IMG/VR virus record: IMGVR_UViG_3300047994_000123
Span: 1 to 37,618 of that record
Reading direction: 5' to 3' (one strand)
DNA from: a virus
Length of the DNA stretch: 37,618 nucleotides
The translations under genes were made by a program, and so were the position numbers. Shown here piece by piece: positions 13,812-34,204 of the stretch (position 1 is the first letter of the stretch; each line of letters opens with the position of its first letter). Under the pieces are notes generated by a model. That model ran no database searches and was not told where the DNA came from. It saw nothing but the letters and a program-made list of their open reading frames with translations.

Positions 13812-16775
13812 TTATTGCTCACCGAAATTATCTACTTCCGTATCCGAAACTGGAGATTCAGTAGTTGTAGGATCTCCCCCAGTTTCGTCGTCCGGTGACA
13901 TATCATCAATACCAGAACTTGTAATGCCTACATCAGATAACCCAGCTGGCGCGCTCCCACCAGCTGGTTCAGGTGCAAATGTTTTGGTAAGTCTGCTACG
14001 TTCTTCTTTCCACATACGCTCGTTTTCTGCAAGTTGTCCATCTGTCCAAGCAAGATATGTTTTTAACAAATAACGCTTAGAAATAAACGGAACATCAAGC
14101 AATGCAGTAAATGTATTTATACGAGCTGCATCTAGTTCAAGCTGTCTGTATTCAGAGAATGATTGAGCTTCAGTAAATTGAATTTCGAATAAACTATTAT
14201 CAATTGTTACACCGCGATGTTTTAGGAATAATTTAAATTCCATATCAATAGGTTCAATAACTTGCTGTTGATATCGTGTAACAACCTTAGAAAATCTGAA
14301 TTCCTGAATAAAAGCTGTACCGACTCTTCCGTCGTTTACTGCTGCTGTACCATCCTCCGGACCCGTCGGCAAGTACGAACTAGGGACACCAAGAGCGCGA
14401 AGCATTTTATTGTTGAAGTAACGTAAGTCATCGATATCACCAAGATTTTCGCCTCCGGGCAAAACTTCAACTTTAGAACCTCGACCTTCGCTTGTAACGG
14501 CAAAAAAGTAATCCTCCAAGATTGAGTTTTTAACAAATATACCGGATTCTAAAGCAAATGTATGATAGTTAGACCATTTTTCTTTTCCGTCAATTGTGAT
14601 AGTTCCTACATCCTGTTTTTCAGTCATTCTTTCTATAGAAACTATTCGGTGGTTATAATTAGCAGATTTTTTCTTAAAATTTTTCCAATTTTTATAACCA
14701 AATTTATCATACATTTTTTCAAGTTTACTATTTGTAAACTTATCATTTTTTACATTCCCAGTTGAATTAGGTAATATTGGGTTTGCTTCGTTGAGTAAAG
14801 TCATAAACTTAGTATCTTTATTTGCTAAATCAATTGTTGATATTCTATCAGAGTTATGTTTTTTTACCAATTCTACAAGTCTAGTAAGCATAGGCTGAGT
14901 AAAGTTAAGAGTCTGATTCTTCGCTTTATTTTTAAGCAAGTTTTTTGCTGCCATTTCCTTTAATTCAACTGATCTTGCTGAACCATTTTTATAAAAATTA
15001 GATAAACTTTTACCTAATTGTAATCTCCAATTTTTAAATTTATCTGGATCTTGTTCTCTCATTTCAGAGATCCAGGAAATATCTCTATTCTCGTACTTTT
15101 CTTTCCAATCTGGATTTTCAAGCCTATATTTTTCTAAAGAAGCTCTTATTTTATTTTTAATCCTTGTAGATTCTTCGGCAGAAATATTTTCCCAATATTC
15201 TTTTTTTGTAAACGAATGATATAATGTATGATCATGTTTATTCATCCATTGTAAATTTTTAGGGTCATTATTATATCTATTATAATCTTTGTGATGAACT
15301 GTATCTTTTATATCATTTTTGCATTCATCATTAAATACAAATTCCTGATGTTTGCCGATATCTTTAAAGAACTCAGCAACAACTCTATGTGTAAATCTCC
15401 AATCATTTTTTTCATGATCGTAAATTTGCTCATAACTACGATTTTTATCTTTTGATAAAGATATTTTTCTTGTCTCGAACGATATTAGAGGCATATCTGT
15501 TGTAAGATCCTGCGCTTCGACAAAGCCTTTACCTAATACAGGAATTTTATGATCCGGAGTACAAATAATAGTATTACCATTATCTAATGTAATTTTTATT
15601 ACTTCGGCATTTTTTCTCGTCACACCGGCCCATGTAATAACACCTGGTACAATTTTACCTGTTACGGGATCTGAACTATATGCCCAGTTTTCTTTTCCTA
15701 ATTTATATTCCTCTGAAAGTTCTGATATAGTTAATATTCTTCCATCTAATAAAGGAACTCTAGTAGACATATCCAAGCACATAGGATTGTAGGTCGAATC
15801 TGTCACGTTTGCGCCACCACCAGTTCTACTCGGAATACGTTTTTGCTGAACTTCATAACGAATACGTTCAAGATACTGATTGGCCTTATTAGGCGGCATA
15901 GTACCTACGTCAATAAAAAATACACGACGTTCGGGAGCGCGGTGTACCCGATATATTAAAATAGCATCTTCTAAAAGCTCTTTCTGTTTATAGACTTTAT
16001 AGATTTGTTCAAGAATACTTAAACCAAAAGGCCATGCAGCATTCATACCATCAGTTAATGATATTTGAACTATATGTTCGGCGTCAACTGCAACAGCACC
16101 ACCATCTTGATAATTTGCTGTACCCGCGCCTCCATAGCCTCCGGAAACATAATTCATGTTACCCTGCATAGGCGGAGAAAAAACAATACTGTTTGATCCA
16201 AAAGATTCGTTTGAAAGTTTGTTTAGTTGATTTGTTGCAACTAAACTTTTCATATTTAAGTCGATGTCTTTAACAAAATAACTTTCAATTTTTTTACCAT
16301 CTGACTCGTTTACGATAACTTTTTCAACTTTACCTGGATCGATCCAATAAAGTTTAAATGTTTCGGGATCACGAATAAAAAACTGATCTCCGTAAACAAG
16401 TGTAGAACGAAATATTCTCCATAATCTGCGAGTAATTTTATTTAGTCGACACCATTGTCCTAATGTTTTTTCTAAAATTTGAATTTCAGAAGGGGTGGGT
16501 TCATCATTATATTTTAATACAAGTGGAAGTTTTGTAACTTCGTCGCACTCTGTACCAAAATCTGCAATAGTATCAAGTGCAGCACTAATTTCATGATCGT
16601 AGTTCATTTGATCATATACAGAATATCTCTGCAAACGATCGGGCGGCCCCGAGTAGACTTCAGGTAACCAATTACTATATTTAGATATAGATGCGTAAGC
16701 TGATGTAGAATCTACAGCCCTTTGAGCAACTGGTAGTACCGAATTAACGGGCTTAAAAAATTTTTTCCATGTCAT
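13812..16775 (-). CDS. 20: Portal vertex protein, T4 gp20-like, interrupted by an intein
   Basis: A 987-residue precursor. Residues 1-332 and 751-987 are portal sequence (569 residues after splicing; T4 gp20 is 524). Typical portal segments are YDQMNYDHEISAALDTIADF, VHRAPERRVFFIDVGTMPP, the EQIYKVYKQKELLEDAILIY helix and, after the intein, SILEDYFFAVTSEGRGSKVE. The portal forms the dodecameric ring at one head vertex that starts prohead assembly and acts as the DNA channel. The intein interrupts the joint STYNPM / SILEDYFF, a highly conserved place in gp20. The ATG overlaps the stop codon of the upstream gene (ATGA), indicating translational coupling. A terminator follows. Confidence 0.95.
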   Translation of the reverse strand: MTWKKFFKPVNSVLPVAQRAVDSTSAYASISKYSNWLPEVYSGPPDRLQRYSVYDQMNYDHEISAALDTIADFGTECDEVTKLPLVLKYNDEPTPSEIQILEKTLGQWCRLNKITRRLWRIFRSTLVYGDQFFIRDPETFKLYWIDPGKVEKVIVNESDGKKIESYFVKDIDLNMKSLVATNQLNKLSNESFGSNSIVFSPPMQGNMNYVSGGYGGAGTANYQDGGAVAVDAEHIVQISLTDGMNAAWPFGLSILEQIYKVYKQKELLEDAILIYRVHRAPERRVFFIDVGTMPPNKANQYLERIRYEVQQKRIPSRTGGGANVTDSTYNPMCLDMSTRVPLLDGRILTISELSEEYKLGKENWAYSSDPVTGKIVPGVITWAGVTRKNAEVIKITLDNGNTIICTPDHKIPVLGKGFVEAQDLTTDMPLISFETRKISLSKDKNRSYEQIYDHEKNDWRFTHRVVAEFFKDIGKHQEFVFNDECKNDIKDTVHHKDYNRYNNDPKNLQWMNKHDHTLYHSFTKKEYWENISAEESTRIKNKIRASLEKYRLENPDWKEKYENRDISWISEMREQDPDKFKNWRLQLGKSLSNFYKNGSARSVELKEMAAKNLLKNKAKNQTLNFTQPMLTRLVELVKKHNSDRISTIDLANKDTKFMTLLNEANPILPNSTGNVKNDKFTNSKLEKMYDKFGYKNWKNFKKKSANYNHRIVSIERMTEKQDVGTITIDGKEKWSNYHTFALESGIFVKNSILEDYFFAVTSEGRGSKVEVLPGGENLGDIDDLRYFNNKMLRALGVPSSYLPTGPEDGTAAVNDGRVGTAFIQEFRFSKVVTRYQQQVIEPIDMEFKLFLKHRGVTIDNSLFEIQFTEAQSFSEYRQLELDAARINTFTALLDVPFISKRYLLKTYLAWTDGQLAENERMWKEERSRLTKTFAPEPAGGSAPAGLSDVGITSSGIDDMSPDDETGGDPTTTESPVSDTEVDNFGEQ
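14526..15779 (-). mobile_element. Intein in gene 20 with HNH endonuclease
   Basis: 418 residues (333-750 of the precursor). It begins CLDMSTRVPLLDGR (block A, splicing Cys), has GNTIICTPDHKIPV (block B with T-x-x-H) and ends YHTFALESGIFVKN before Ser. The usual penultimate His is replaced by Lys. Between the splicing halves, TVHHKDYNRYNNDPKNLQWM (about 492-511) is an HNH-type nuclease motif. The boundary codons are TGC at 15779-15777 and AAC at 14528-14526. Removal restores a continuous portal sequence. It is a selfish element that homes into intein-free copies of gene 20 (family knowledge). Confidence 0.93.
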
Positions 16776-18957: not shown

Positions 18958-19806
18958 ATGGAACAACAAGTTCAAAACAATAATCCGTTAAAGCAATATT
19001 TTAGAGCAATAAAACTTTATCTATCATTACCAAGCGGAACAAGTTATTATCCGCCAGATATGATCGCCTTTACAGATAAAGGCGAAATAGGTATTTTACC
19101 TATGACTGGTAAAGATGAACTTGCTTTAAAAAATCCAGATGCATTACTTAACGGGGAAGCATTAATCGAAGTTCTTACAAGTTGTGTTCCCGCTATTAAA
19201 AATCCAAGAGCATTACTAACAAACGATATAGACGCATTGATTACAGCAGTTCGATATGCAACATATAACGATTCATTGGAAACTACTATTAATTGCCCAA
19301 AGTGTTCATATGAAAATACATATAAGCTTGATTTACAATATGCATTAGATAATATGACTCAATTAGAATCTGAGTATGTAGTAAATCTTGATAACGGATT
19401 ATCTATTTTTGTTCAACCATATACATTTCCAGATCTATTAAAAAGTCTTCACTCGCAATTTGAAAGAAACAAATTTGCAAGAGCAGCAGAAAGTGAAACA
19501 ATCAGTGATGAACAGAGATCAAGTATTTTTAAGAAAGCATTTAAAGAAATAGCAGTAACAAAATTTGATTTGATGTGCAGTGCTATTCTTAAAGTAGTAG
19601 ATGAATCAAAAAATGTAAATGTATCTGATAAAAAATTTATTAAAGATTTCTTACAGAATATTGATAAGAAAAGTTTAGATAAAATAAGTGACCAAGTAGA
19701 TAAAATTAATCAAATAGGTATCAAAAAAGTATTCACTGCAAAATGTGAAAAATGTACTCACGAATGGGAAAGCGAAATTGATTTTAATCCTGTAAATTTT
19801 TCATAA
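18958..19806 (+). CDS. 26: Baseplate hub subunit, T4 gp26-like
   Basis: A 282-residue protein of the T4 gp26 baseplate family, a component needed to assemble the central hub. Characteristic are the early segment LYLSLPSGTSYYPPDMI (about residues 20-36), the block GEIGILPMTGKDELALKNPD and the following helix ending VPAIKNPRALLTNDIDALI. Two Cys pairs, INCPKCSYEN (C113, C116) and KCEKCTHEW (C263, C266), could form one zinc site, with the intervening ~145 residues as a separate helical insert. AGAGGAA precedes the start. It leads a three-gene operon under the late promoter at 18899. Confidence 0.82.
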   Translation: MEQQVQNNNPLKQYFRAIKLYLSLPSGTSYYPPDMIAFTDKGEIGILPMTGKDELALKNPDALLNGEALIEVLTSCVPAIKNPRALLTNDIDALITAVRYATYNDSLETTINCPKCSYENTYKLDLQYALDNMTQLESEYVVNLDNGLSIFVQPYTFPDLLKSLHSQFERNKFARAAESETISDEQRSSIFKKAFKEIAVTKFDLMCSAILKVVDESKNVNVSDKKFIKDFLQNIDKKSLDKISDQVDKINQIGIKKVFTAKCEKCTHEWESEIDFNPVNFS

Positions 19807-19814
19807 GGTCACTA

Positions 19815-20033
19815 ATGTTTTACCCTCCTGAAAAATTAAGTGACCTTATTGATTCATATATAAAGGATGGCATTGCACTAAAAGAACAAATTGCGGATAT
19901 ATGTTATCACATGGAAGGTGGAATTGAATGGAATTCAGCTTGGGGTATGAGTTTCGAAGACAGAGAAATTGTAATAAAAGTGGTTAATAGAAGATTAAAA
20001 GAAAAAAATCCAGGTGGTAAGGACTACATGTGA
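19815..20033 (+). CDS. Small baseplate-operon protein (gp51 position)
   Basis: A 72-residue protein with the distinctive segment IADICYHMEGGIEWNSAWGMSFEDRE, a helix-turn motif repeated in short proteins next to baseplate hub or tape-measure genes of many myoviruses. AAGGTCAC precedes the ATG, 8 bases after the gp26 stop. In T4, gene 26 is followed by gene 51, a hub-assembly factor, but T4 gp51 is 249 residues; equivalence is a guess from position. A tail-assembly chaperone role is an alternative. Confidence 0.5.
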   Translation: MFYPPEKLSDLIDSYIKDGIALKEQIADICYHMEGGIEWNSAWGMSFEDREIVIKVVNRRLKEKNPGGKDYM

Positions 20034-20041
20034 GGATTATC

Positions 20042-20611
20042 ATGCATAAAAAGTTAGAAATACAAGAGCTCGACATTCCAATAGACGATATTGAGTGTTG
20101 GGAAAGATATCCTAAACATCGTTGGGTTTATGATTTATCTCGTTTACTCGATGCTCAAAATATTAAATGGAGTCTATTTGAAACAGATGCTCTTAAAGAT
20201 AAAGAATTAAATATATATCTCGAATCTTTAAAAGAAATAGAATATGATCCTGGTTACATCTATATTAATAGACCAAACGGATTTCATACTCTTGCCGAAG
20301 TATATCTAACTAAAGGTGAAATTAAACTTACTAGATATTTTGACAAAAGAACTCTATTAGAGATAAACGAATTTATAGGAAATATAGAACTTCGCGTCAA
20401 TGCATTTGTGTCAATGCATTTTCAGAAATTCACAGGTGTTATTACAATGGAATTTGTTGGAAATGATATTATGTCAATTAGACTTCGTGCTTACCCAGAG
20501 TTAGGGCAAAATACAGAATCGATAAAACTCACTAAGCGCATCTATAAGAAGACCGAGATCATTGTTAGTGGTCCTACGGACCAAGCCCTTCACGAAAAAG
20601 TCGCTTCGTAA
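20042..20611 (+). CDS. Conserved-looking protein of unknown function
   Basis: About 189 residues from MHKKLEIQELDIPIDDIECW. The ATG at 20042 is preferred over the GTG at 20030 because GAGGAT lies 7 bases upstream of it. The segment CWERYPKHRWVYDLSRLLDAQ (about residues 20-40) is striking: it is rich in aromatic and basic residues and has the look of a conserved active or binding site. The rest is mixed alpha/beta without signal peptide or membrane segment. It is the last gene of the gp26 operon, and a TGGTCC/GGACCA hairpin lies inside its 3' end (20569-20583). No function is recognised. Confidence 0.7.
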   Translation: MHKKLEIQELDIPIDDIECWERYPKHRWVYDLSRLLDAQNIKWSLFETDALKDKELNIYLESLKEIEYDPGYIYINRPNGFHTLAEVYLTKGEIKLTRYFDKRTLLEINEFIGNIELRVNAFVSMHFQKFTGVITMEFVGNDIMSIRLRAYPELGQNTESIKLTKRIYKKTEIIVSGPTDQALHEKVAS

Positions 20612-20664
20612 ACTTCGCTCGTTTTTCGTTCGCGCTATTTGCTTCGCATAATATATTTAATTAA

Positions 20665-21225
20665 TGTTACATCAAATTGATGTGTTTTGAGTGTACTGAC
20701 GGAAGAATCAGACCAAGGGTATCCAAACCTTGGATATGGAAAAATCCTGACGGCTTCACCAGATCTGAACCGAAATATTTTTGTAGTGTTGGATTGATTA
20801 TGTCAACTACCGCTCATTAGGCGTTTCGGAAGGGGCCAATTAAGGCTCGCTGCATATGTAACTATCCTTCAGCTGATAATTACGCAACCAGTGGGGCATA
20901 CCCTGTTTTCACGTGCCCACTGCAAACTTAAACTCGATTATCTTACTTGCCACAATGGTAACTTTCATATAATCTTGCCTTTGCACACTCAAAGGTCTTG
21001 ACTGTTGCTCTCCATTCCGAAAGACACGTCAGCGAAATACTAACTGGGCTCGCTATCCCTGTATTGTGATTTGTATTTTTGTATTAAAAAGATTTAAAAT
21101 TGATATGCTTTTGTGTCTTGATTTGCTCAACAGCTCTGGGCTGTACACTATTTTATCCGCATTGTTAGAGCATCGCTAATAATCTTGATATAAGTAAAAA
21201 AGGGCCCGAATACCCTTTTTTAATT
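20665..21225 (+). ncRNA. Candidate large structured noncoding RNA (~550 nt)
   Basis: Plus-strand hairpins readable by eye: ACATC/GATGT (20669-20683); CCAAGG/CCTTGG (20713-20733) competing with TATCCAA/TTGGATA (20720-20736); GTAG-TTG/CAA-CTAC with a 2-base bulge (20783-20810); GAAGG/CCTTC (20829-20870); CAGTGGG-CA/TG-CCCACTG with a bulge (20889-20922); CCTTTG/CAAAGG (20978-20995); AGCGA/TCGCT (21031-21054); ACAGC/GCTGT (21130-21144). AGTGTAC (20690-20696) and GTACACT (21143-21149) could close ~460 bases as one long-range helix. The segment is less AT-rich than its surroundings and ends in a T-tailed terminator. No tRNA, tmRNA, RNase P or group I intron core was recognised. It is either a separate RNA or a long tail of the gp26 mRNA; no convincing promoter of its own is visible. 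Confidence 0.5.
21196..21221 (+). terminator. Bidirectional intrinsic terminator
   Basis: AAAAAAGGG and CCCTTTTTT form a 9-bp stem around CCCGAATA, with T runs in both directions. It ends plus-strand transcription through the gene-free stretch and, 15 bases past the stop codon, minus-strand transcription of the endolysin gene. Confidence 0.9.
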
Positions 21226-21235
21226 TTTATACTTA

Positions 21236-21820
21236 TTAGAAATTTGCATTTGGATCAGTAGAAAATGCACGCATTTCAGTTATGCGACGTAGCCATCCAT
21301 TTAAAAAATGTGACTGACTTGGATTATTTGCAACAATATCTTGATAGTATTTTGCTCTAATATCACAAATTTTATTACATAAATCAATAGGATCTATTGC
21401 TGATAATGCAGCAAGTGTTATCTTACCTATAATTCCATCTTCGGTTACACCCACAGCTCTTTGTAGAAACTTTTTAGCCCTAGATACGCCGTGATTGACG
21501 CAACTATCAAAATGAAGGACTCCTACACGAGCATTAAGATTATCACATAGACCGGTAATCCAATAACGATCATAATAGACTGCTTCAGCTTGTGACCAGG
21601 TTAGATTTGCAATATTAAGATCGGGATTATCATTCTTTGCAATTCCAAATTTTGTTTCTCCACCGTGATCAAGAGGATCATTAACATATCCAACTGCATC
21701 TTTTTGAGCCTGCGTATTAATAAGGCCTGCTATCACATCCGGTGTTAACTTAAATCCGGGACCTACTTCATACAGCATACAATGAAGAACTGCACTCTCA
21801 AAAGCCGATGGATATGACAT
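21236..21820 (-). CDS. Endolysin, GH108-type muramidase with peptidoglycan-binding domain
   Basis: A 194-residue lysis enzyme. GYVNDPLDHGGETKFGIAK (residues 44-62) followed by LTWSQAEAVYYDRYW is the signature of glycoside hydrolase family 108. VGVTEDGIIGKITLAAL (near residue 124) is the matching PG_binding_3 segment. In most members the catalytic Glu sits directly before GGYVN; here that place is AVGYVN. MLYEVG (Glu18) lies ~25 residues earlier, so an insertion between the catalytic Glu and the glycine loop is likely. No signal peptide is seen, so a holin elsewhere is expected. A strong AAGGAG ribosome site and a late promoter (21843-21851) lie upstream. Confidence 0.85.
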   Translation of the reverse strand: MSYPSAFESAVLHCMLYEVGPGFKLTPDVIAGLINTQAQKDAVGYVNDPLDHGGETKFGIAKNDNPDLNIANLTWSQAEAVYYDRYWITGLCDNLNARVGVLHFDSCVNHGVSRAKKFLQRAVGVTEDGIIGKITLAALSAIDPIDLCNKICDIRAKYYQDIVANNPSQSHFLNGWLRRITEMRAFSTDPNANF

Positions 21821-25198: not shown

Positions 25199-26218
25199 TT
25201 ATAACCTATTATAGATTTCGATTAGTTTATTATTATCGAATGAGTCACTATCGATATTTGTTAACTGTTCAATAACAATATTATCGACAGTCTTAAACGT
25301 GACATCACCTGCATAATCTTTTTCTAATTCGTCTTCTTGATTTTTTACAAGTTTAAATTCACGCACATCGTATTGATCGATAAAAGTTTCTCTAAGAAAA
25401 GTTGCCTCCTCGTATGTTATATCAGCATCTAATGTAACTTGAAGATATGTCTTAGGTTTTAGATAGATATCTGGATTACGTAATAATGCCGTCAGATTTA
25501 TATTAATAAATCTCGGACCATCTGTATAATCAATAAGCTCTGGTTCTTTATCCCATTCTAAAAACATACCACCTCGTTCAAAGTCCCAGACGTCCGAATA
25601 GTTGTGACCAAAAGGATTACCAATATAGTTGATTTTACCTTTAGTCTGTCTCTTATGAAAATGTCCTGAAAATACAAAATCTTGATGTGGGAAATGTGTC
25701 GAGTTTAGATTTCCGTGGTCGGGCATTTCTACCATTGCGTTCATTTTAAAGCCCGGTAATTCCAAATGTCCAAACAGATATTTTGTTTTAATATCAGCTA
25801 CAGTTTTCCATTCATCCTCGACAAGCCAAGGAATTAGTGCAACATCACTCTGAATGAATGGTTCGTCGACGAGTACAATATTTGGAAATAAACTAGCAAA
25901 TTTTGATGTGGTTATCGACCTATTTTCTCTAAAATATAAATCGTGATTTCCGACTAAAAAATATGTCTTATCGAAGTTATTATTCAATAATCGCATACCT
26001 TCTATCATAAAATTCTGTGTTTGAGCATTTACACCATTTCTATGGTGATGATAATCTCCCATAAAAATACAAGTTTCTGCTCCTCTTTCTTTACCGACAG
26101 AAATTAACCATTGAATAAACTCGATAACATCCCGATTATGTTGAACCGAGTTATGCCTTAGACCGAAATGGCAATCGGTCCACACCATAGCCTTATTAAA
26201 TAAATTATTCGTGATCAT
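25199..26218 (-). CDS. 47: Recombination nuclease subunit, T4 gp47 (Mre11/SbcD-like)
   Basis: About 339 residues from MITNNLFNKAM. Metallophosphoesterase motifs occur in order: WTDCHFG (Asp15, His17), CIFMGDYHHHRNG, YFLVGNHDLYF, a GHLELPG segment and VFSGHFHKRQ. These bind two metals for 3'-5' exonuclease and endonuclease activity with gp46. The ATG at 26218 has an AGGA about 10 bases upstream; a longer form from 26239 (MHRNLLK) is possible. Both starts lie at or inside the 3' end of gp55, so expression is coupled to it. Confidence 0.93.
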   Translation of the reverse strand: MITNNLFNKAMVWTDCHFGLRHNSVQHNRDVIEFIQWLISVGKERGAETCIFMGDYHHHRNGVNAQTQNFMIEGMRLLNNNFDKTYFLVGNHDLYFRENRSITTSKFASLFPNIVLVDEPFIQSDVALIPWLVEDEWKTVADIKTKYLFGHLELPGFKMNAMVEMPDHGNLNSTHFPHQDFVFSGHFHKRQTKGKINYIGNPFGHNYSDVWDFERGGMFLEWDKEPELIDYTDGPRFININLTALLRNPDIYLKPKTYLQVTLDADITYEEATFLRETFIDQYDVREFKLVKNQEDELEKDYAGDVTFKTVDNIVIEQLTNIDSDSFDNNKLIEIYNRL

Positions 26219-28118
26219 CTTTAATAGATTCCTGTGCATCTTCTCTTAGTCTGCGAATTTCGCCCTCGAGTGCAAGCTGTCTCGAAAAACTTGGACTTGC
26301 CCCACTATCAATAAGCATGTCATCGCGAAGATCTTGATTCTTCTTTTCTAAATTAAGTACACGAGTAAAACTATTAGAAACGCTTGCGGTATAATATGAA
26401 AAAGGATTATCGGATTTATATTCGTCAAATTGCAATCCCATTTGGGAAAGTTGAAGAAGAGCTTGACCCTTCATTTCGTCAATATATGTATTGCCAGTAA
26501 GATATACTGTGCCGTTTCTTCTTGCAACAAATGACCCATATTCGGTTTCTGGACACCAAACTATTCCTTTATAATCTTCTGTCGGTATATTTTGGTGCAA
26601 TAATTTATTGATACCTAATTGAGTTTTTCTATCACGACCTGTATTTCTGCCGCCGTTAAAATTGATACATGATCCATTTGTTTTATTTTTCTTCTTAGAA
26701 AAAACATTTACTGTATAATAAGAAGTAGGCTTGCCAGATGACATTTTATTTTCGACATAATGATAATTGGATCTTCTTCCGGTCAGCGCACACAATAATT
26801 GAAAATTATCGATGTGTTCTTTATTTTTTTGGACATATCTTATATGTTGTTTATTATTGCCAGTTCTCCATCCATCTCCGTCGACAAGTGTATTCAAAAA
26901 TAATTCTCGTTGATCTGCAGTTAGACTAATCAACATTTCAACCGGCAATTGTTTAGTCGGGAGTATAGAAACTATATACTTAGAATCTTTTTTCGAAATT
27001 CCAAGTATGATATTTTTATTTTTATCATTTTCAGAATATTCGTAACCGAGTGTATCAAGACATTTTCTAATACGATCAGCTTTTTTACCGTTATTTTGAT
27101 ATATAGTAATTCCTTTAATATTACCGGTTTGATCAAATTCATAACATCCCTCGGTAGATATCCATGCAAGTAATTCTACCAATTCGTTTTTATAAGTCTC
27201 GACTGTATCCTCTACAGCATCGGCAAGCATCAGTATTTTGTCTGAAGTTTTAATAAGTTCAATCGGGATTAGTCCTTTTTCTGTGACTAACTTATGATTG
27301 GGAGTTATCAGACTATCAAATCCTTGCTGAGTTAAATGATGCATTTTGCCTTCGAATGTATCTTGAAAAATAGATTTAATACCTGACCATGCAAGTTTTT
27401 CACCGTTATATGATAATATGGTATCGGAGGTAGTAATTTTATCATATGATAACCAACCTCTGGTGGTAAGTGCTTCTGTATCTGCATCTACGCAATATCC
27501 TCGCCAATTTCCTCGCTGTGCATATTTATTCACCATTAAGATAAACATTTTTGCAAGTTTATTGGTAATAGATCCGTGATCGGCGCTAAATTTTCCCTTT
27601 TTAGAGTGCGAACGACCCACCTCTTTAGCAACACCATTTTCGATAATAAAGTGTTTAAAGGGGAAGAAATTTAATTTTAAATAATTATCTGCTTCGCTTT
27701 TTGGGGTTTTTTTACGTCCAGGAGCTAAAGGAATATGATCAAATCCGAGGACCCTGAATACAAGATCGTCAACTGGAATTGTATCAGGGCTAATTTTAAA
27801 TTCTGCTAGTCTTGGTTTATCGGCCTTAGTCATTACTACAGTGTTTGCTACTGCTACTTCAAATGCTGTTACTGCTATTCTTGCTGCCCTTGTTGCTTTT
27901 GCTTTTTCCTGAATTTCGGGTAAGAAAATATCATCGAGATTTTCAACAATAACATCGTAATCACTATATTTTGGACTAATATATTCACAAAATGAATTTT
28001 TACTACGATGTATTTCTTTTAACATATCTTTGTTATTTAGATAGTTAATTTTTTTTACTGGGGCAATTACAATGGTTGCTGGCGCTTCGTTGTCTTCGTC
28101 GTCGATATCTGGAATCAT
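26205..28118 (-). CDS. 55: Late-transcription sigma factor, T4 gp55-like, interrupted by an intein
   Basis: A 637-residue precursor. Spliced gp55 would be residues 1-208 plus 544-637 (302 residues; T4 gp55 is 185). gp55-type segments are INYLNNKDMLKEIHRSK, ITNKLAKMFILMVNKYAQRG and, after the intein, TYIDEMKGQALLQLSQMGL with NPFSYYTASVSNSFTRVLN, the sigma-2-like helices that contact core RNA polymerase and the -10 DNA. About 145 residues (roughly 41-185) between these motifs are additional relative to T4. gp55 reads the late promoters found throughout this window. The gene has a good AGGAG ribosome site and a near-consensus host promoter and leads the 55-47-46 operon. Confidence 0.9.
   Translation of the reverse strand: MIPDIDDEDNEAPATIVIAPVKKINYLNNKDMLKEIHRSKNSFCEYISPKYSDYDVIVENLDDIFLPEIQEKAKATRAARIAVTAFEVAVANTVVMTKADKPRLAEFKISPDTIPVDDLVFRVLGFDHIPLAPGRKKTPKSEADNYLKLNFFPFKHFIIENGVAKEVGRSHSKKGKFSADHGSITNKLAKMFILMVNKYAQRGNWRGYCVDADTEALTTRGWLSYDKITTSDTILSYNGEKLAWSGIKSIFQDTFEGKMHHLTQQGFDSLITPNHKLVTEKGLIPIELIKTSDKILMLADAVEDTVETYKNELVELLAWISTEGCYEFDQTGNIKGITIYQNNGKKADRIRKCLDTLGYEYSENDKNKNIILGISKKDSKYIVSILPTKQLPVEMLISLTADQRELFLNTLVDGDGWRTGNNKQHIRYVQKNKEHIDNFQLLCALTGRRSNYHYVENKMSSGKPTSYYTVNVFSKKKNKTNGSCINFNGGRNTGRDRKTQLGINKLLHQNIPTEDYKGIVWCPETEYGSFVARRNGTVYLTGNTYIDEMKGQALLQLSQMGLQFDEYKSDNPFSYYTASVSNSFTRVLNLEKKNQDLRDDMLIDSGASPSFSRQLALEGEIRRLREDAQESIKDDHE
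26490..27494 (-). mobile_element. Intein in gene 55 with LAGLIDADG-type endonuclease
   Basis: 335 residues (209-543 of the precursor). It begins CVDADTEALTTRGW (block A), has FDSLITPNHKLV (block B with TPNH) and ends SFVARRNGTVYLTGN before Thr. LLAWISTEGCYE (about 317-328) and LFLNTLVDGDGWRTG (about 407-420) are the paired LAGLIDADG-like motifs of a DOD homing endonuclease. The penultimate His is Gly, seen also in other phage inteins. The insertion point NWRGY / TYIDEM lies in the conserved core of gp55. The boundary codons are TGC at 27494-27492 and AAT at 26492-26490. Confidence 0.93.
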
Positions 28119-31823: not shown

Positions 31824-34204
31824 CGTATATTAATAGCAATTATCGTTCTGTTTCTCCAACATCTAACGAACGATCTCAGCCTTTAGGTAGACAAATAACT
31901 CTAAACGGTCTGTATATTGGATTTGTAAAAAATGTGGATGATGTACAAAAGAATGGCCGTTTACAAGTATGGATTCCTGATCTCGGATCTGCCCCTGATG
32001 ATGATCAGGGATGGATTACTGTAAACTATTGTTCACCCTTTGCAGGTGCTACAAATGTAGAAACAATTAGTAAATCAGATATTAAAAAATTTGAAGGAAC
32101 CCAAACTTCTTACGGTATGTGGATGGTTCCCCCTGATATTAATAACGAAGTTGCAGTTATGTTTGTTTCGGGAGATCCATCTAAAGGTATTTGGATTGGA
32201 TGCCTTTATAATCAGTTTATGAACCAAATGGTACCGGGAATGGCAGTTGATACAAAAAACTGGCAATATAATGGAATTCCTGTTCCTGTTGCTGAATATA
32301 ATAAATGGGATAAAAGTGTAACACAGCCCGATAGTGCATATCATCCATATCAAAAAACTAAATTTTCCGGACTAGGTAATCAAGGTCTTATCAGAGATCA
32401 GGGTAGAGGAATAACAACCTCTAGTGCTAGAAGAGAATCTCCTAGTAATGTCTTCGGTATTATTACCCCAGGGCCGGTGATCGATGATACTGCACCAATA
32501 GAAAGTATTCGAAGAAAAGGCGGATCGTCATTTATTATGGATGACGGTACAGGATCCGAGTATGTTCAGCTTACTACAAAAACAGGAGCGCAAATTAGAC
32601 TAGATGAAACAAATGGTTTTGTTTATCTAATTAACAGAGATGGTACAGCCTGGGTTCAAATGGATCAGCAAGGTAATATTGATATATTTGGTGCAACTAA
32701 TATATCAATGAGAGCCCAGAGAGATGTTAATATCCGTGCAGACAGAAACATCAATATAGAAGCCGGCCAAAATATATTTATGAAAGCGGCAATGGATACT
32801 GTAGAGACCACGACTCCATTTACCTACGATGTAAATAATATACCTAAACCCTCAAATATTCCTTATTGGAGTTATGTCGGCGAAGGTGCCGGAGATGGTG
32901 GCAATATTGTAATACAAGCATTAAACAATCTTCATAGTAAAACAACAAATGGTGCCTATTTGACAGTAGTAAATAATGATTTAAATATCAATGTAGGTAA
33001 TAATATCAGTGCAACTACAATTAATGGTAGTCAAGAATTTAATGCTAAACTTGGTGCAAAAATTACTACAGATGGTGCATTAGATATTGCTACTACCGGT
33101 AATATTAGAATGGGATCAAAAGGTTCTGTAAATTTAGTAGGCGGCAGTGATGTTGTTGTATGTTCGTCTGCCGGAATATCATTAAATTCGCAGAGTGATT
33201 TAAAAGCAATATCTGCAGGTTCTGTACAATTAACTTCAATAAGTGTAGATATTAGCGGTATGCTTAATGTAGGAGAATTATCTACATTAGGCGGAGGTAT
33301 GATTGCATCTGGACCAATAACATTGGGTGGTCCACCCATACCTGTAGCTCAGGCAGATCCTACAGCAAGCGAAGGTGCTCTATCTGCAGGATCTGCATCT
33401 GTAGCTGAAGTAAAACCATTAAACGATAAAATTAATATTCTTGCTACTTGGGCCGATAATACTACAAAATTTAAAAGAAATTCGCAGGCAATGCAAACAA
33501 TGGTTTCTAAATTACCGACATATGAGCCTTGTCCCGAGCACGAAAAGTTTAGTTTTTCTTTTATTGCTGGATATTCTCCACAAATTAATGAGGGGGATAA
33601 AACTTATGACGGATCAGCAGGTGCAGGAAACAATGCTAGTTCTACTCCAGTAGCAAATACTACACCCGGCGCCAATAATACAATGATTATGGGTGATCCA
33701 CCTACAGATAGTAGTGTAACCAAAGATATAAATATGCAAGCACTTCGCTGCCAGCTTATTGCACATGAAGGGCTAAAAAATCAAGTGTATGATGATATAG
33801 GCGGTTTACTATCTGCCGGTATAGGTCATTTATTAAGGGCAAACGAAGTAACAGAATATACACTAGGGTCTACAGTAGATTCATCTCAGATAGATACATG
33901 GTTTACACAAGATTCAATAACTGCCGTCAAAACCTGTCAGCAGCTTATGGGAGATGTCTGGAGTGATTTTTCGGATATTAGAAAACGTGCATTAGCAGAC
34001 CTTGCATACAATATAGGTAAAACAAGATTATCTAAATTTATTAATTTCATTGCATCAATGAAGGCAAAAGATTATAATGCAGCAGCAGATGCCCTTCGTA
34101 ATTCTAAATGGTATACACAGGTAGGTCGTCGAGGTCCGGATCTAGTAACAATGATTTCGAGTAATTTAGATCCTACCGGCTGCGATAAAAAATTTCCAGG
34201 ATAA
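31820..34204 (+). CDS. 5: Tail spike/needle protein, gp5-like, with C-terminal lysozyme domain
   Basis: A 794-residue protein. Residues about 25-150 form the OB-fold domain of gp5/VgrG proteins (GLYIGFVKNVDD, GRLQVWIPDLGS, GDPSKGIWIGCLY). About 235-505 are short-period strands (INRDGTAWVQMDQQGNIDIFG, NVNIRADRNINIEAGQNIFMKA) building the triple beta-helix needle. A linker leads to a T4-lysozyme-type GH24 domain (about 640-780): LIAHEGLKNQVYDD (Glu650, Asp659) and AGIGHLL, with Ser665 where T4 lysozyme has catalytic Thr26. In T4 gp5 the lysozyme lies between OB fold and needle, so the order is changed here. The protein punctures the outer envelope and opens peptidoglycan. Confidence 0.88.
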   Translation: MTYINSNYRSVSPTSNERSQPLGRQITLNGLYIGFVKNVDDVQKNGRLQVWIPDLGSAPDDDQGWITVNYCSPFAGATNVETISKSDIKKFEGTQTSYGMWMVPPDINNEVAVMFVSGDPSKGIWIGCLYNQFMNQMVPGMAVDTKNWQYNGIPVPVAEYNKWDKSVTQPDSAYHPYQKTKFSGLGNQGLIRDQGRGITTSSARRESPSNVFGIITPGPVIDDTAPIESIRRKGGSSFIMDDGTGSEYVQLTTKTGAQIRLDETNGFVYLINRDGTAWVQMDQQGNIDIFGATNISMRAQRDVNIRADRNINIEAGQNIFMKAAMDTVETTTPFTYDVNNIPKPSNIPYWSYVGEGAGDGGNIVIQALNNLHSKTTNGAYLTVVNNDLNINVGNNISATTINGSQEFNAKLGAKITTDGALDIATTGNIRMGSKGSVNLVGGSDVVVCSSAGISLNSQSDLKAISAGSVQLTSISVDISGMLNVGELSTLGGGMIASGPITLGGPPIPVAQADPTASEGALSAGSASVAEVKPLNDKINILATWADNTTKFKRNSQAMQTMVSKLPTYEPCPEHEKFSFSFIAGYSPQINEGDKTYDGSAGAGNNASSTPVANTTPGANNTMIMGDPPTDSSVTKDINMQALRCQLIAHEGLKNQVYDDIGGLLSAGIGHLLRANEVTEYTLGSTVDSSQIDTWFTQDSITAVKTCQQLMGDVWSDFSDIRKRALADLAYNIGKTRLSKFINFIASMKAKDYNAAADALRNSKWYTQVGRRGPDLVTMISSNLDPTGCDKKFPG

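Follow-up and report, generated by a model that had tools for sequence, protein, structure and literature searches.

The large, ornate phage RNAs GOLLD and ROOL form RNA cages (PMC12286853), and the functions of both are not known. The RNA described here resembles GOLLD in being a large, elaborate and pseudoknotted phage RNA of unknown function, in its modular build of a conserved and a variable part, and in its occurrence in lake and phage sequence (PMC12286853). With ROOL it shares a similar length, a complex pseudoknotted fold and the lack of a known protein partner (PMC12286853). It differs from both in that neither covariance model matches it and in that it was not found near tRNA genes in the loci scanned. 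A second promoter class (TGAAACG - TATA) has been reported for the jumbo phages CBB and GAP32 (PMC5259590), and we found promoters of this type at the 5' ends of one form of our RNA (type III, see below); the RNA downstream of them is unannotated in the GenBank records inspected, which have just gaps or short hypothetical ORFs at these places.

The window, i.e., the whole stretch of DNA analyzed here, covers 37.6 kb of a T4-like phage in IMG/VR and encodes gp23, the gp20 portal with an intein, the gp21 protease and the baseplate hub. To judge from sequence comparison, it is very probably a piece of a jumbo phage genome, because the capsid protein shares 77% identity with its counterpart in the Pseudomonas aeruginosa jumbo phage PA5oct and contigs bearing the same type of RNA reach 385 kb. 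Between positions 20612 and 21235 there is no ORF of ≥60 amino acids on either strand, while the surrounding region is densely coded, and the GC content rises to 0.445 (positions 20801 to 21000) versus about 0.23 to 0.38 nearby. An earlier note on this DNA had rightly described the stretch as gene free and less AT rich than its flanks. The eight or more clear hairpins that it had also counted in the single sequence are not beyond chance, as the folding energy of the window sequence alone was not significant on either strand (z = -1.2 for plus and -0.7 for minus). The support for an RNA structure is comparative, and it is overwhelming.

A profile search retrieved about 28 distinct IMG/VR sequences homologous to this RNA (type I) at 56 to 80% identity, and two independent degenerate DNA patterns recovered largely the same contigs. 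The homologues are positioned between a conserved phage gene, coding for a 193-amino-acid protein, and an endolysin gene. Compared with the closest relatives, the RNA stretch is better conserved (77 to 80%) than the flanking coding sequence (about 72 to 74%). A bacterial-genome hit of the conserved 20-mer, in a Lachnospiraceae MAG, was rejected as a chance match. The check for covarying pairs in related phages that the earlier note had proposed gave a clear signal. In alignment A3, under a 112-pair model that includes a pseudoknot, 93.1% of 2,860 cells are paired, and both sides change in 64 of the 112 pairs, with 329 compensatory cells compared to 95 ± 10 in shuffles and 39 to 62 in slid controls. 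Among about 84,000 pairs tested against a null that keeps the tree, seven to nine pairs of the model reached an E value of <0.05, and the strongest covarying pairs fell nearly all inside consensus helices; these E values are simulation based and do not come from R-scape, and the alignments were built by sequence. The conserved homologues, the compensatory base pairs and the covarying pseudoknot strongly support the presence of a large structured noncoding RNA at this locus.

The coding strand could be determined from the wobble pairs, because an A-C on one strand is a G-U on the other. The helices recovered in folds of both strands contained 89 A-C versus 11 G-U cells when read on the plus strand, and those grown from strand-neutral seeds gave 66 G-U versus 7 A-C cells on the minus strand. 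For the two other types described below, the same test gave 11 to 1 in favor of minus (type II) and a weaker bias of 81 to 40 (type III). We therefore consider it almost certain that the stretch is a large structured noncoding RNA encoded on the minus strand. The earlier note had regarded a structured RNA as the last element of the baseplate operon; the RNA itself stands, but it runs opposite to and converges with that operon and is codirectional with the endolysin gene, and a plus-strand RNA ending the operon is ruled out by the strand test.

Table 1 lists the features of the locus. The 5' end of the RNA was tentatively placed near 21143 from a promoter-like element and its 3' end near 20697 from the point at which conservation stops. 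The predicted transcript is ~450 nucleotides long in the window and 600 to 700 nucleotides in most relatives. Within hairpin a, the pairs 150/181, 153/178, 149/182 and 152/179 covary at E values of ≤0.01. The pseudoknot (helix 15) is formed as CUGAA/UUCAG in one group and UUAUA/UAUAA in another, with further versions in single members; the exchanges at its pairs are C-G 16 / U-A 9, G-C 16 / A-U 9 and A-U 17 / U-A 8. Stem e ends directly before the second pseudoknot strand. A noncanonical pair (window positions 21018/21013), in which G-G exchanges with A-A, covaries at an E value of about 0. A hairpin similar to the 5'-terminal one of the window also follows the promoter-like element in the relatives. 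The 7-bp AGTGTAC/GTACACT helix pointed out earlier is present in the window and is equalled in 1.5% of shuffles, but its counterpart is missing in every relative tested. It was rejected as a closing helix, being confined to the window. It overlaps the promoter-like element.

TABLE 1 Features of the RNA locus in the window
Feature	Position	Strand	Basis or remark
Gene for 193-amino-acid protein, unknown function	20030..20611	+	Convergent with RNA; adjoins RNA in relatives too
Conserved core used for alignments	20678..21070	-	Alignment and covariation tests
RNA, about 450 nt	20697..21143	-	Conservation, covariation, strand test
Pseudoknot strand 2 (UUCAG in window)	20765..20769	-	Helix 15
Stem e, with inner hairpin GUAGU...ACUAC (20783-20810)	20771..20828	-	Helices 18 and 20; pair 261/316, E = 0.02
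Hairpin b, loop makes pseudoknot	20849..20888	-	Helices 13 and 14, covariation
Pseudoknot strand 1 (CUGAA in window)	20868..20872	-	Helix 15
Hairpin a, 7-bp outer stem (7/7 pairs vary compatibly) and inner 5 bp	20889..20922	-	Covariation
Hairpin with inner helix, every pair varying compatibly	20936..20974	-	Helices 8 and 10
6-bp hairpin with compensatory pairs	20978..20995	-	Helix 6
5'-terminal hairpin ACAGC...GCUGU	21130..21144	-	Inverted repeat, directly after promoter-like element
TAAAATA, -10-like half of promoter-like element	21149..21155	-	Conserved in types I and II
TATCAAGATT, upstream half of promoter-like element	21181..21190	-	Fixed distance to TAAAATA
Terminator-like stem between endolysin gene and RNA	21195..21222	. 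(listed on + strand)	Symmetric, A/T flanked
Endolysin (glycosyl hydrolase 108) gene	21236..21820	-	Upstream of RNA and codirectional with it

The combination of TATCAAGATT and TAAAATA occurs only once in the window, at 21190 to 21149. In every type I or II member with both halves located at the RNA, the distance from TATCAAGATT to TAAAATA(G) is exactly 25 nucleotides, while the sequence of the spacer varies; the automatic search missed several loci and took an unrelated site in one contig (L005). By inspection, the element is apparently absent from the type I paralogues. It differs from the apparent late promoter of the window, TGATAAATA, and a late promoter of the form TATAAATA, which was also looked for at the RNA, was not found there. 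The putative late promoter TGATAAATA lies upstream of positions 18958, 21820, 21992, 28237, 35053 and others (structural genes and the endolysin), and divergent copies of it precede the hub gene. An intrinsic terminator had been proposed for the end of the RNA. There is indeed a terminator-like stem, but since the RNA runs the opposite way, it is located at the 5' side. There it could end the endolysin message ahead of the RNA promoter, and in some relatives no terminator is evident between the endolysin gene and the RNA.

Three contigs and a more divergent fourth (L010, L054, L058 and L095, respectively) carry a different, sequence-unrelated core at the same locus, designated type II. Three of the four share with type I the module next to the promoter. 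In all contigs where the 193-amino-acid gene is followed by intact sequence, type I or type II is present. No direct DNA similarity to cultured phages was found, and cultured relatives were reached only via the synteny of the baseplate hub gene, which in the jumbo phages PA5oct, Phosso, XaC1 and CBB leads to a gap at the corresponding place. A third form (type III) was found in cultured jumbo phages, including CBB, GAP32, 121Q, SNUABM and Sharanji, and the CBB-type sequence is present in 40 records. Up to five copies per genome occur in cultured giant phages of Escherichia coli and other bacteria, with five each in CBB, XbC2, SNUABM_44, Munch, XaC1 and Hallingskeid, four found in Sharanji and two in RaK2; three places in PA5oct resemble its own gap sequence. 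In CBB, four of the copies occupy gaps of 661 to 738 nucleotides between genes of the same direction. The copies group by position among CBB, XbC2 and SNUABM_44, but by genome in XaC1 and Sharanji, and the positional clustering indicates that the duplications in the former three are old.

An alignment of 35 type III copies contained 16 covarying pairs at an E value of <0.05, and the order of elements is that of type I, i.e., hairpin, hairpin with pseudoknotted loop, hairpin, stem and pseudoknot partner. Nearly every copy has a TATAAT-type promoter at its 5' end on the same strand, in many cases as TGAAACG-TATAAT. The three types do not match one another by sequence or covariance model, so that the case for a putative common origin is made by locus, strand and topology. 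Types I and III share the locus, the strand and the order of hairpins and pseudoknot; type II shares locus and strand with both, and no pseudoknot was resolved in its four sequences. In five type III copies (L106, L135, L136, L141 and L152), the promoter is immediately followed, where the RNA starts, by a terminator-like hairpin with a T run, an arrangement that suggests attenuation or antitermination.

Neither strand of the RNA matched any Rfam family, with only chance-level hits at the gathering cutoff and at E values of ≤10; this includes the group I and II intron, RNase P and ribozyme models, and ARAGORN detected no tRNA or tmRNA. With the GOLLD model (RF02032), the RNA loci gave no hit up to an E value of 10. 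Positive matches of this model (187 to 212 bits) were G001:160815-161233, G002:169065-169531 and positions 33533 to 34001 of Phosso (PV764938). In these three jumbo genomes with a bona fide GOLLD, the locus studied here is also present or has a gap in its place, and GOLLD lies elsewhere, so the two RNAs are not the same. ROOL (RF03087) did not match in the Rfam scans or in six whole genomes, the latter searched without a positive control, and tRNA genes, the usual neighborhood of GOLLD, were absent from the window and 14 related loci. The earlier note had likewise been unable to assign the stretch to GOLLD, ROOL, tmRNA, RNase P or introns, and of the two options that it offered, a new large phage RNA agrees with the Rfam result, while membership of the GOLLD or ROOL class does not agree with the models. 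The RNA is separate from GOLLD, though comparable in kind, and uncatalogued. We found no description of it in the open-access papers searched, although an earlier one is possible. It adds a separate, covariation-supported class of large phage RNA, found beside GOLLD in the same genomes. It is present, unannotated, in cultured jumbo phages of E. coli K-12, Salmonella and Klebsiella, and as related gap sequence in a phage of P. aeruginosa. Because cultured jumbo phages carry it, the role of a large phage RNA becomes directly testable.

A stand-alone, minus-strand RNA gene of an uncatalogued class in T4-like jumbo phages, with a product that acts in trans as a folded particle, would fit the presence of promoters, the paralogous copies at unrelated loci, the pseudoknot in the core and the resemblance to GOLLD and ROOL. 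We give this explanation about an even chance, an estimate that covers it as a whole, together with its observed parts (conservation, structure, strand, promoter-like signals and paralogy). A minus-strand transcript of ~450 nucleotides would begin at a phage promoter immediately 3' of the endolysin gene, and its core would fold into hairpin a, hairpin b with a loop that pairs downstream, a further hairpin, stem e and then the pseudoknot partner. The class would comprise three or more sequence types that occupy a single syntenic locus, plus paralogous copies elsewhere in the genome. We infer that the RNA would be produced abundantly in infected cells, as a particle with a stable fold, either alone or with protein, and would act in trans in the manner of GOLLD and ROOL; action in trans is suggested by the copies at unrelated loci.

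The distribution of the copies might instead point to replication or partition, in which a structured transcript would, in the way of ColE1 RNA II or the T4 origin R-loops, serve as a replication primer or origin mark, with copies throughout the genome. The copies within one genome all share the same orientation. The five CBB copies (KU574722), at 32, 94, 174, 258 and 336 kb, are co-oriented and rather evenly spaced, with matching places in related phages (52 to 84 kb apart in CBB; P value for minimum spacing in CBB-type phages of 0.0001 to 0.07). In two contigs from uncultured jumbo phages of the same clade as the window, a second type I copy lies about half a genome away from the first. Neighboring genes include those for recombination (RusA or endonuclease VII, gp46 and gp47) and, in Phosso, RNase HI. 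However, the spacing tests among related phages are not independent, the GC skew of CBB climbs steadily and does not reverse at the copies, and the recombination neighbors occur at only one of five loci, so we regard this explanation as unlikely. Its most far-reaching version, an evenly spaced, co-oriented dispersed element whose structured transcript would prime or organize the replication of genomes of >280 kb, as a counterpart of ColE1 RNA II in up to five copies, seems decidedly doubtful.

Just as unlikely as a role in replication is a counterdefense decoy that binds a host sensor or nuclease, in which case the sequence turnover with a fixed fold and the replacement of types would reflect an arms race. 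Non-homologous types do swap at one locus, several divergent copies coexist per genome and the fold is kept despite strong sequence divergence. On the other hand, no Rfam RNA family was matched, and the unpaired stretches are strongly conserved, suggesting a fixed partner or tertiary contacts. A cis-acting role, whether in the endolysin message (as its 3' untranslated region or a signal for its processing) or as an antisense repressor of the convergent gene, is quite improbable: the RNA does adjoin the codirectional endolysin gene in types I and II, in some members with no evident terminator in between, but it has its own promoter-like signals with invariant spacing, its paralogues adjoin unrelated genes and endolysin is not a neighbor in the CBB-type phages. 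A ribozyme or mobile intron remnant is very improbable, because despite homing-endonuclease-like ORFs nearby in some relatives, no intron or ribozyme family matched and the RNA sits between genes rather than inside one.

Some minor features of these genomes were also observed. The window contains the intein-bearing portal gene at 13812 to 16775 and a LAGLIDADG domain in a 637-amino-acid protein (26205 to 28118). In two of the type II contigs, ORFs that resemble homing endonucleases (assigned to this family by inspection) adjoin the RNA or the endolysin gene (L054, 4167 to 4778; L058, 6769 to 7242), and insertions may be especially frequent at this locus. Finally, short hypothetical proteins are annotated over the RNA in three GenBank records (L098, 9189 to 10001; L123, 2526 to 3169; L124, 2665 to 3169) and are probably spurious.
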